A stretch of 64,000 nt of DNA from contig RXIF01000006.1 in assembly GCA_004212075.1 (NCBI GenBank), forward strand, positions 124,001 through 188,000. Reading direction: 5' to 3'. The stretch is from Candidatus Methanoliparum thermophilum (GTDB lineage Archaea; Halobacteriota; Methanoliparia; Methanoliparales; Methanoliparaceae). This document shows, one piece after another, positions 32,335-55,720 of the stretch (position 1 is the stretch's first letter; every line of letters starts with the position of its first letter). Position numbers and translations under genes: made by a program. Below the pieces are notes generated by a model. The model was not told where the DNA came from. It made no database searches and saw only the letters and a list, made by a program, of their open reading frames with translations.

Positions 32335-32687
32335 ATTTCAATCCCTTATAGGTAATCTAAAACTAAAGCATCGTTCATTTCAATCCATTATATTTATCCC
32401 TTATAGCTGGTTTAATAACGAGCCAATAAACCAAAAACAACACGGCAGTACAGATATTAATAATTCTGACATGTCTATTAATCATATCAGGAGTGTTTGC
32501 TAAATACAACTGACATGTTTCCACAGCTAATATGCACATTAGTATTGCTATTAATGTAACGATCAGGATTTTTTTACGTGTCAACATAATCTATTTCAAT
32601 CCCTTATAGGTAATCTAAAAACCAGCATTCTGTAAGCAACGGGTGGAGGGATCCCTTATTTCAATCCCTTATAGGTAATACACTAAC
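32335..32687 (-). CRISPR. degenerate CRISPR array (type I-B-like repeat), interrupted
   Basis: Repeats read on the minus strand have the consensus 5' GTTTTTAGATTACC then TATAAGGGATTGAAAT (30 nt). Copies: 32658-32687 (leader-proximal, first nine bases different), 32593-32622 (perfect), 32335-32364 (near perfect), and one at 32377-32406 split by a 13-bp insertion. Only one normal spacer is present (32623-32657, 35 nt, period 65). Between the second and split copies lies a 70-codon frame instead of spacers. No cas genes are in the window, so the locus is an orphan or relic. Confidence 0.8.
32375..32587 (-). CDS. small two-helix membrane protein embedded in the CRISPR remnant
   Basis: 70 residues: basic MLTRKK, a transmembrane helix (IVTLIAILMCILAV), a polar middle, a second helix (ICTAVLFLVYWLVI) and a basic tail. 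The ATG is 5 bp after a CRISPR repeat, and the last codons (AIRDKYNGLK) are encoded by a repeat copy split by a 13-bp insertion. The hydrophobic pattern suggests a real membrane peptide, but there is no ribosome-binding site other than repeat sequence, and chance is possible. Family unknown. Confidence 0.4.
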   Translation of the reverse strand: MLTRKKILIVTLIAILMCILAVETCQLYLANTPDMINRHVRIINICTAVLFLVYWLVIKPAIRDKYNGLK

Positions 32688-32721
32688 AAAATATGTAAAC
32701 TTCTTCGTTAATAAACCTTTT
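32688..32721 (-). promoter_or_regulatory. CRISPR leader, copy 1
   Basis: Read on the minus strand, the sequence beginning AAAAGGTTTATTAACG and running into the first repeat matches the leader at 37154-37187 with three mismatches over 64 bp including the repeat. It contains the weak TATA-like AAGTTTACATA about 25 bp before the first repeat. The direction shows that the 32335-32687 array is transcribed leftwards. Confidence 0.75.
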
Positions 32722-32842
32722 ATCGATCTCTGAAAAAATAAGAGATTATATATATTAACACGGATCAAGTGATTTTTCCTATTTATTACCGTGTTTTTGC
32801 CAAATAATAGAGTCGTCGATCCCCTGACGAACTTTTTTATTG

Positions 32843-36053: not shown

Positions 36054-36989
36054 TTATGTAATATCAGATTGATTATTAAAAAAATCCTTGATTTTTGATA
36101 CCTTTTTTAGAGCTTTCTTTATATAATCGGTAGATTCATCCCGATATATTGTTTTTATTCCTCTTGCATCCTCTTTAAGGATAGATAATCCTCGGATCAA
36201 CACCGCAGGCGTCATCCAATCTCCTTCACCCATCAATATATTTGCCAAACCAGCCAGTTCATCAACGATAGCTTCTTCAGAGACTCTGAGTATTCTTCCG
36301 AAGATATCTTCCTTTCCCTTCCAATCTCTTATTGGATCGAGATTATATGCACCGATTGCAAAACCAACTTGTCCTCTTCTAAACGGTCTTCCGTTCGTGT
36401 CGGATATGATTACACCCACTTTTTTATCTTCTATTGCAGCTATCCGCTCCCCAATCTTTCTAGCACTTAAATCCGGATCCTTAGGGAGTAATATGACAGA
36501 ACCATCTTCTATATTAGATCTATCTACGCCAGCATTTATGCAGATATTGCCACATTTTGCCTTGACAAGAAAAATAGGCGGATATTCTATTATTATTTCT
36601 TCTGTCTCGTCTAATATTGCCTGTATAAATCTTGGATCGTCATCACAAATCTTCGATTTGTGAGCTACGAATCTTTGATTCGTAACATTTTTTTTTCTTG
36701 AAATCTCTATAGCCTTATCAGTAGGTTTGATATTTTTCAAAAGCCTGGTTCTTCCCTCAGATTTAGATACGGCAGTATGTGCTACGACTATTATGTCATT
36801 ATCCTCTATACCTGTACCCATCTTTTTAATCTCATCGACCAAAAGTTCTCCAATATCCATTCCTTCTTTTATTATTGGTAATTTTATAGAACTGGCATAA
36901 AGTGAAAACAGACGTTCTTCACTACTGGTTGAGAAATCGCAAGGAGGTGCAGGAACCTTGGTTCTGCGTTTTGATGCAAAGATCATCAT
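36054..36989 (-). CDS. cofE: coenzyme F420-0:L-glutamate ligase CofE
   Basis: Adds gamma-linked glutamates to F420-0. The core begins at about residue 32 (SIKLPIIKEGMDIGELLVDEI). Ligand segments: VVAHTAVSKSEGR, KAKCGNICINAGVDRSN, VIISDTNGRPFRRGQVGFAIG and ANILMGEGDW. Residues 102-116 (TNQRFVAHKSKICD region) are encoded by a 41-bp paired palindrome, an insertion relative to the family as I remember it. The first 30 residues (MMIFASKRRTKVPAPPCDF...) are also an unusual extension; a later start is possible. It is separate from the cofGHC locus. Confidence 0.9.
   Translation of the reverse strand: MMIFASKRRTKVPAPPCDFSTSSEERLFSLYASSIKLPIIKEGMDIGELLVDEIKKMGTGIEDNDIIVVAHTAVSKSEGRTRLLKNIKPTDKAIEISRKKNVTNQRFVAHKSKICDDDPRFIQAILDETEEIIIEYPPIFLVKAKCGNICINAGVDRSNIEDGSVILLPKDPDLSARKIGERIAAIEDKKVGVIISDTNGRPFRRGQVGFAIGAYNLDPIRDWKGKEDIFGRILRVSEEAIVDELAGLANILMGEGDWMTPAVLIRGLSILKEDARGIKTIYRDESTDYIKKALKKVSKIKDFFNNQSDIT
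36644..36684 (-). repeat. 41-bp paired-palindrome element inside cofE
   Basis: Two perfect 19-bp hairpins, each 8-bp stem and 3-nt loop, 3 bp apart: CACAAATC-TTC-GATTTGTG at 36644-36662 and TACGAATC-TTT-GATTCGTA at 36666-36684. On the coding strand the order is TACGAATC hairpin, GCT, CACAAATC hairpin, identical in layout to the copy in iorA (41032-41072). It is translated in frame as part of CofE. Confidence 0.8.
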
Positions 36990-37153
36990 GACACCTCGGT
37001 TTTTATCTTAAATAATAATTTTATATTTTCATCTATATTAATACATCTCCGTCATTAACATCATTAAATCGATATTTTAACTATGGTCCATATATGGTAG
37101 GATCGCATATAATTAGCGGTTAACAAAATGGACAAAAATTATTGTATCTCGAC

Positions 37154-37217
37154 AAAAGATTTATTAACGAAGAAGTTTATATACTTTGTTAGTGTATTAC
37201 CTATAAGGGATTGAAAT
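37154..37217 (+). CRISPR. CRISPR leader plus single repeat, copy 2 (inverted relative to copy 1)
   Basis: AAAAG at 37154 through ...GGGATTGAAAT at 37217. The 64 bp match the reverse complement of 32658-32721 with three substitutions. It includes a TATA-like AAGTTTATATAC (37173-37184) and one repeat (37188-37217) with the same deviant first nine bases as the leader-proximal repeat of copy 1. No second repeat follows before the end of the VWA gene, so this is an empty array. Confidence 0.75.
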
Positions 37218-40484: not shown

Positions 40485-42305
40485 TTGAAAAAGGAGGAGA
40501 TAATAATCAAAAAATTTCTTATGGGCAACGAAGCGATAGCACAGGGATGCTTGGAGGCTGGAATAGATTTCGCAACAGGATATCCTGGAACTCCATCATC
40601 CGAGATAATCACATCATTAAGCATCTCTAATGAGAGAAATGTATATGTGGAGTGGTCAGTTAATGAAAAAGTCGCATTAGAAAACGCTATAGGTGCCGCA
40701 TGGTGTGGATTAAGATCCATATGTGTAATGAAACACGTTGGATTGAATGTAGCCGCAGACCCGTTCATGTCATTGGCGTACACTGGAGTAAAAGGTGGTT
40801 TTGTTATTATAGTTACAGACGATCCGTTTCCACATAGTTCACAAAACGAGCAGGATTCTAGAAGGTATGCTCATGCAGCAAAAATTCCGTGTTTGGATCC
40901 TGCAACACCGCAAGAAGCGAAAGATATGGTAAAATACGCTTTTGAATTATCCGAAAAATACGAGATTCCTGTAATGTTGAGACCAACTACAAGGATTTGT
41001 CATGCTAGATCCGACATAGAGGTCGAGAAGTTTCAAATCGAAGATTTGAAGCCCACAAATCAAAGATTTGTGAAGATACCAAAAGAGAAAAGAGTAGGTA
41101 GATTCTTTAAAGATAGAGACCGGTGGGTGCTAGTACCATCAAACGCTAAGATACTCCATAGAGAACTTCAGATAAAACAGAAAAAGATAATAGAAGATCT
41201 AAACGGGACGCCATTTAATAAAAGAGTTAAAAATATAAAAGAGACCAAGATAGCAGTTGTATCTGGTGGCGTAGCAAGCTGTTATGTCAAAGAGCTTATT
41301 CCAAACGATATACCTTTCTTTAAAATTGGTACGTATCCCGTAGATATCGACCGATTGGGAGAATTTACTAAAAATTACGAAAAAATTCTCGTTATAGAAG
41401 AATTGGATCCCATTTTAGAAGAAATAGTAAAAATGTCCACATGTTCGACTGTGTTAGGAAAATATACGGGAGATGTACCGTTTTATGGTGAATTAAACCA
41501 AAATATAGTCTATGATATTCTTATTAAGAACGGTATAACCCCTGTTGTTAAATATGATCTTAAAAAACCAGTTGAGGGGCTACCTGCCAGGCCACCAATC
41601 CTCTGTGCAGGATGCCCTCATCGTTCGATATTATATCTAATCGAGAAAATTTTTAAAAATGGGATCTATACGAGTGATATAGGTTGTTATACTTTAAGCC
41701 CTTTCTCCGTGGATACATGCCTATGCATGGGTGCCTCAATAACAATCGGCAGTGGAATCAGCCATTGTGATAAAAGAGACGTAGTTGCAACGATAGGTGA
41801 CTCTACATTTATGCATACCGGGATACCAGGATTGATAAATGCGGTATATAATAATGCAAATATCTTGATAGTGATTCTTGATAATAGGACAACCGCAATG
41901 ACAGGGCATCAACCGACAGCGGGAACAGGACAAAATATACAGGGAGAGTCGAAGGAGTTATCATTAGAAAAAATTTGCCAAGCTTGCGGTGCGGATTTCG
42001 TTGAGACGGTAGATCCGTTCGATATCAACCTATCTAAAAAAATACTCGAGCGAGCCAAAAAAGAAAAAGGAGTAAGAGTGATAATCGCACGACATCCTTG
42101 CTATATGATAGAGAGAAAACAAAACGTCGAAAAAGCATATTATGAGATAGACGTAAAGAGATGCACTAAATGTGGAGATTGTTTGGATTACGGCTGCCCT
42201 GCTATTGAACTATACGATATAAAACCGATAATAAACGATCTATGCACAGGATGTGGTGTATGTTCTGATTTATGCAGAAATGGAGCAATAAGGAGGATAA
42301 AATGA
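40485..42305 (+). CDS. iorA: indolepyruvate:ferredoxin oxidoreductase alpha subunit
   Basis: Oxidatively decarboxylates aryl pyruvates (or runs in reverse) with CoA and ferredoxin. 606 aa: pyrimidine domain with FATGYPGTPSSEI, TPP motif GDSTFMHTGIPGLINAVYN, and two C-terminal ferredoxin clusters CTKCGDCLDYGCP and CTGCGVCSDLCR. The open frame begins with TTG at 40485, but GGAGG at 40493-40497 points to initiation at an ATC codon (40506), giving the family start (I/M)KKFLMGNEA. Residues 183-196 derive from a paired palindrome (41032-41072). Confidence 0.93.
   Translation: MKKEEIIIKKFLMGNEAIAQGCLEAGIDFATGYPGTPSSEIITSLSISNERNVYVEWSVNEKVALENAIGAAWCGLRSICVMKHVGLNVAADPFMSLAYTGVKGGFVIIVTDDPFPHSSQNEQDSRRYAHAAKIPCLDPATPQEAKDMVKYAFELSEKYEIPVMLRPTTRICHARSDIEVEKFQIEDLKPTNQRFVKIPKEKRVGRFFKDRDRWVLVPSNAKILHRELQIKQKKIIEDLNGTPFNKRVKNIKETKIAVVSGGVASCYVKELIPNDIPFFKIGTYPVDIDRLGEFTKNYEKILVIEELDPILEEIVKMSTCSTVLGKYTGDVPFYGELNQNIVYDILIKNGITPVVKYDLKKPVEGLPARPPILCAGCPHRSILYLIEKIFKNGIYTSDIGCYTLSPFSVDTCLCMGASITIGSGISHCDKRDVVATIGDSTFMHTGIPGLINAVYNNANILIVILDNRTTAMTGHQPTAGTGQNIQGESKELSLEKICQACGADFVETVDPFDINLSKKILERAKKEKGVRVIIARHPCYMIERKQNVEKAYYEIDVKRCTKCGDCLDYGCPAIELYDIKPIINDLCTGCGVCSDLCRNGAIRRIK
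41032..41072 (+). repeat. 41-bp paired-palindrome element inside iorA
   Basis: Two perfect 19-bp hairpins (8-3-8): TTCAAATC-GAA-GATTTGAA at 41032-41050 and CACAAATC-AAA-GATTTGTG at 41054-41072, separated by GCC. Same layout, same orientation to the gene and same second hairpin arm as the cofE copy. In frame, encoding FQIEDLKPTNQRFV; the peptide TNQRFV also occurs in CofE from its copy. Confidence 0.8.
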
Positions 42306-55550: not shown

Positions 55551-55720
55551 TTTTATCTTTCCCTTTTTATTTTCTCGACGACCATATCACAGTTTAATAT
55601 CACAGTTTATCTTCTTTATTCTCTATCACTCTTTTTCTTTTAAATTTTATTTTATATAGTCTTTCTCTTCCCCTATAGGAAATTATTTTAAATGATATAT
55701 AAAAGTTTTGACGTTTCTTT

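Follow-up and report, generated by a model that had tools for sequence, protein, structure and literature searches.

A 42-nt double hairpin in the iorA gene of Candidatus Methanoliparum thermophilum as a probable copy of a short mobile DNA family

The iorA gene of the oil-seep archaeon Candidatus Methanoliparum thermophilum carries a short double-hairpin segment which, on comparison of genes and genomes, is very probably (probability about 0.87) a copy of a short mobile element of the non-autonomous kind. The element is a dispersed multi-copy family, with about 45 copies in this Methanoliparia-lineage genome. Alignment with homologous genes shows the iorA copy to be an insertion, and a 3-nt target duplication flanks it.

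The host gene, encoding the indolepyruvate ferredoxin oxidoreductase alpha subunit (TIGR03336, E 3.9e-231), occupies 40485..42305 on the plus strand of the window, by which we mean the whole 64,000-nt stretch of DNA that was analysed. The mobile unit of 42 nt (41031..41072, plus strand), delimited by the flanking 3-nt repeat and by homologues without it, begins with a T; two 19-nt palindromes follow, separated by a 3-nt spacer. Hairpin 1, TTCAAATC-GAA-GATTTGAA (41032..41050, plus strand), and hairpin 2, CACAAATC-AAA-GATTTGTG (41054..41072, plus strand), both form perfect 8-bp stems with 3-nt loops, and the left and right copies of the target duplication AAG lie at 41028..41030 and 41073..41075 on the same strand. 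Re-reading of the sequence and a stem scan reproduced exactly the coordinates, stems, loops and sequence that the initial annotation had given for 41032-41072; the unit itself starts one base earlier, at 41031.

A second copy in the window, of the TACG/GCT/CACA type, lies on the minus strand at 36644..36685 within cofE (coenzyme F420-0:L-glutamate ligase; 36054..36989, minus strand; NF009809, E 1.7e-84), between ATG repeats read on the minus strand (downstream copy 36641..36643, upstream copy 36686..36688). These two were the only adjacent 8-bp/3-nt hairpin pairs found by the stem scan in the 64 kb; ten first-order Markov shuffles together yielded a single pair of this kind. The initial annotation had taken the iorA segment for the second copy of a paired palindrome and had ascribed its identity with cofE to the element rather than to the host gene. 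The repeat is real and its dispersal through the genome bears out the second statement, the total being about 45 copies and not two.

We read 42 copies in the organism's own genome (G000, a MAG of 1.26 Mb, 86% complete) and estimate about 45 in all. All genomes compared are incomplete MAGs, and the relatives were sampled by stretches rather than whole; among named organisms IorA is most like that of Ca. Methanolliviera (70-71%), which places the host in the Methanoliparia lineage. We count about 7 related pairs in the one genus-mate (G001), and three genomes of the Ca. Methanolliviera type have at least 50 each. The strict motif AATCNNNGATT..AATCNNNGATT occurs at 17 sites in the own genome (two of the counted sites sharing a hairpin), at none in a reversed control, at 2 in the genus-mate and at 49-85 in three other family members; beyond the family, where matches are near zero, only 2 of another 55 genomes from the phylum contain it. 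A mismatch-tolerant search added the cores AACC/GGTT and AAGC/GCTT, which represent matched changes in both arms. A family covariance model made from 27 copies returned, counting matches on both strands, at least 89 in the own genome, at least 14 in the genus-mate and more than 100 in each of the other family members. Across 464 kb of the own genome true copies scored 40 bits or more and the next match 18.7; the iorA copy, itself among the training copies, scored 60.9 bits. Searches of IMG/VR returned nothing relevant.

Single hairpins are rare (L199 17724-17746, L207 about 18405, L307 9619-9643), and two of them join an arm of one hairpin to an arm of its partner, as a deletion between the two would produce. 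In Methanolliviera, arrays of three to six different hairpins recur at separate loci, partly in the same order (in G002, L216 8119-8209, L217 14124-14271 and L222 1916-2064), as if elements had inserted into or beside one another.

Homologous genes lacking the element show that it is an insertion. The 15 residues in IorA are absent from G002-G004 and from the other aligned members of the phylum: as the initial annotation had proposed, IorA relatives were compared for the insertion, and none in the alignment has the segment, with or without the palindrome. Subtracting T+41+AAG leaves GACATAGAGGTCGAGAAGATACCAAAA, the length of the Methanolliviera gene. In cofE the 15 residues correspond to a gap in all relatives shown (G001-G004 and others aligned), and exact removal of 45 nt restores colinearity there and at both sites in the thymidylate kinase gene, whose two 15-aa insertions are both empty in the genus-mate G001. 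The protein at L313 likewise has one 15-aa insertion relative to G001.

An exact 3-nt duplication of the form XXX-T-[about 41]-XXX flanks 30 of the 42 copies, compared with a mean of 8.9 and a maximum of 18 in permutations, a result that is indicative only, orientation and boundary having been picked for the best duplication match, which biases towards matching. More telling are identical 42-mers with different flanks, ATG/ATG in cofE and ATA/ATA at L305. The flank pairs comprise 12 ATA and 11 ATG, never mixed; duplications of AAG, GCA, ACA, GAA and CGT also occur, and most are ATA or ATG. The duplication was independently confirmed within the genome, where uninterrupted copies of a longer repeat family, B, serve as empty sites: one nested insertion reads GTTCCTGCA-T[41]-GCACCTCCT against an intact B copy GTTCCTGCACCTCCT, and a second reads AAACAAATG-T[41]-ATGTTCTTCAC against AAACAAATGTTCTTCAC. 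Twelve of the 42 copies are without an exact duplication, and eight of these still have ATA or ATG on the 3' side, for which simple duplication does not account; a thymidylate kinase copy, for instance, is flanked by TCG/ATG and its empty site in G001 reads TCG.

Family B itself, whose consensus is close to TGCAGAACCAAGGTTCCTGCACCTCCTTG...AAGAGTGAAGAACATTTGTTTTCA, contains interchangeable hairpin modules; its copies include L307 7260-7324 and L203 17735-17807, with others at L204, L208 and L316. The window copy of this family, into which double hairpins have inserted at other places in the genome, lies at 36903..36967 on the minus strand. It forms the N-terminal region of CofE as predicted, and the start assigned to cofE may therefore be wrong. 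CRISPR-like repeats (ATTTCAATCCCTTATAGGTAATCTAAAA) lie at 32335-32726 and 37149-37217 of the window, and a degenerate one adjoins the double hairpin in a GHMP kinase gene (L311, about 4097). A block of about 145 nt also recurs in the window, at 55694, 59614 and 62282; its three copies have other stretches in common as well, and two of them are 99% identical.

Differences between near relatives argue for recent movement, as far as presence and absence in genomes can tell. G003 lacks a 48-nt element that G002 carries in a 456-aa ORF; a 51-nt element in a 194-aa ORF of Methanolliviera-type genomes is missing from G003 as well as from G004; and in G004 an existing array contains an additional 48-nt hairpin unit. 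The 48-nt and 51-nt differences are in frame, and the Methanolliviera-type stretches compared are 85-96% alike.

Sixteen of the 42 copies lie inside long ORFs, a set biased by the search for internal copies, which demanded an open frame. By Pfam, the hosts are RNA polymerase Rpb2 (near the N-terminus), thymidylate synthase, thymidylate kinase (two copies), CobN, a GHMP kinase (probably mevalonate), NFACT, T2SSE ATPase, Mut7-C, DUF92, an ABC ATPase and a PHP protein; cofE and iorA were named by NCBIfam. About 10 further copies close an ORF: they sit at its 3' end and provide its stop codon. Of the six frames, one on the plus strand lacks stops in 24 of 27 copies and one on the minus strand in 23 of 27; for the remaining four this holds in 4-8 copies. 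The 42 nt plus the 3-nt duplication make 45 nt, so a full-length copy causes no frameshift; and since copies in genes sit nearly all in the stop-free frame (15 of the 16 internal ones), the protein gains 15 residues and is not truncated.

In most internal copies the usual open frame yields roughly [IV]TNxxFVxHxSxIxD. The iorA copy is the one that uses another frame: the usual stop, TAG, has become AAG through a change of A-T to T-A, which opens that frame. The peptide TNQRFV, which the initial annotation had seen in both IorA and CofE, is indeed common to the two; it derives from hairpin 2 in iorA and from hairpin 1 in cofE, so that two parts of the element are read in two different frames. 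We had considered the peptide as a sign of protein-level selection and dropped this idea, given its origin from different hairpins in the two genes. In the AlphaFold model of IorA (pTM 0.83) the insert corresponds to residues 183-197, and its second half overlaps a segment, residues 190-201, with pLDDT below 50. The model fits an insert that would form a flexible loop; low confidence is expected anyway for an insert without homologues in the alignment.

The hairpins are well preserved. In the 27-copy alignment 98.3% of cells are paired, and both-sided changes occur in 10 of 16 pairs (56 cells versus 15.8 in shuffles), so the arms do change together, as the initial annotation had noted. Its further step, from compensating changes to selection on hairpin structure, does not follow: homogenisation of the two arms of palindromic DNA, or amplification by way of a hairpin intermediate, accounts for the covariation as well as selection on RNA structure does. 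The copies share a common ancestry, so covariation measures preservation of the palindrome and not its cause; and G.U pairs occur in 5 of 400 cells and other departures in 7, a balance that gives no preference for RNA over DNA. We consider it very improbable that the palindromes are functional RNA or regulatory structures under selection rather than mobile DNA. The covarying stems are what such structures would show, whereas the copies lie in unrelated genes with target duplications, the sites compared are not common to two genomes of the same genus, empty sites speak against it and an Rfam search gave no matching or relevant family. Short hairpins within essential genes also have the look of mitochondrial translational-bypass elements, and the segment might be cut out of the message as archaeal introns are, or the ribosome might pass over it. 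Frame and stops would then be irrelevant, yet the internal copies keep to the stop-free frame (in a search that required an open one), and the closed-frame copies checked lie at natural gene ends, with the HisRS, endonuclease V and flavoprotein domains complete before the element. We give this explanation very little credence.

For the mobile element, we propose that a protein would recognise the hairpin, as the core AAnC...GnTT, invariant in each hairpin, suggests, and would insert a copy at a new site through a staggered cut, to which the 3-nt duplication points. Insertion would probably proceed from a DNA hairpin intermediate and leave a duplication, mostly of ATA or ATG, and matched changes in the arms would result if one arm served as template for the other. 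Three transposase families were searched genome-wide, DDE_Tnp_1, Y1_Tnp and OrfB_IS605, and sampled stretches of G000 contained no longer relative or autonomous partner with matching ends. Paired short palindromes recall REP/BIME elements, which a RAYT (Y1) transposase mobilises, or derivatives of IS200/IS605 ends, and IS605-type Y1 and OrfB genes are present in G003 and G004 and OrfB in G000. Y1_Tnp has no match, however, in G000, G001 or G002, all carriers of the element (and all incomplete MAGs), the IS605 gene ends in the sampled stretches have no such double hairpin, and IS605 makes no target duplication, whereas the element has one; an origin of this type seems quite improbable. That the element is a miniaturised form of a classical DDE insertion sequence is unlikely, but the idea carries some weight, as a target-site duplication is found here as in MITEs, and one of 3 nt is typical of some DDE families. 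Against this, DDE_Tnp_1 is absent from G000 (an incomplete MAG), 42 nt is far below the length of usual MITEs, and no longer element sharing the ends appeared in the sampled G000 stretches. One double-hairpin copy (L327 1541-1584, G004:C7) is situated in sequence that matches a DDE transposase gene; transposase genes, too, are therefore among the hosts. A reverse transcriptase (RVT_1), expected of a retrotransposed element, was not detected in G000, G001, G002 or G004, again incomplete MAGs.

Tentatively, and at slightly less than even odds, we suggest a lineage-wide archaeal system in which double-hairpin DNA elements of 42-51 nt spread through coding sequence by an undescribed mechanism, leaving 3-nt duplications and, in genes, multiples of three bases, and thus act as a steady source of in-frame peptides in essential proteins. 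Similar selfish palindromes are found in Rickettsia and in yeast mitochondria; from the open-access literature we know of no selfish palindrome of this kind described in archaea, and a paper on Methanoliparia genomes mentions neither transposons nor palindromes. To our knowledge, in-frame palindromic selfish DNA has so far been a Rickettsia speciality whose mode of movement has not been described. The archaeal counterpart is smaller and comes with clean empty sites and target duplications; these, together with presence and absence in near relatives, make the insertion chemistry and the cost to host proteins testable. Short lineage-specific insertions in Methanoliparia enzymes may thus be mobile DNA and not adaptation.

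Among known systems, the element appears to work like the Rickettsia palindromic elements (RPEs) and the yeast GC42 cluster, a likeness of behaviour that need not mean kinship. RPEs are multi-copy palindromic repeats found in frame inside unrelated metabolic genes with a consistent peptide (PMC10969869), and here too the in-frame palindromic repeat is absent from homologues; RPEs are about 150 bp long and fall into ten families, whereas the archaeal unit is 42 nt, has two separate hairpins and shows a clear 3-nt duplication. Bacterial REP/BIME are likewise short (14-40 nt), often paired palindromes, which seldom overlap coding regions (PMC12306157), whereas the archaeal element enters genes and duplicates its target, and RAYT was not found in the genome. 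The double-hairpin elements of Allomyces and the RHEs of sponge mitochondria are also short tandem hairpins, the latter sometimes inside genes; the Allomyces elements are without flanking duplications (PMC2800124), unlike the archaeal ones. Yeast mitochondrial GC42 resembles the element in structure, duplication and modular merging (PMC4478555). As in GC clusters, direct repeats of 2-3 nt surround a short palindrome that is present or absent in relatives; the clusters are mostly intergenic, GC-rich and organellar, whereas the copies described here have a GC content of 27-45% and reside in archaeal genomes.
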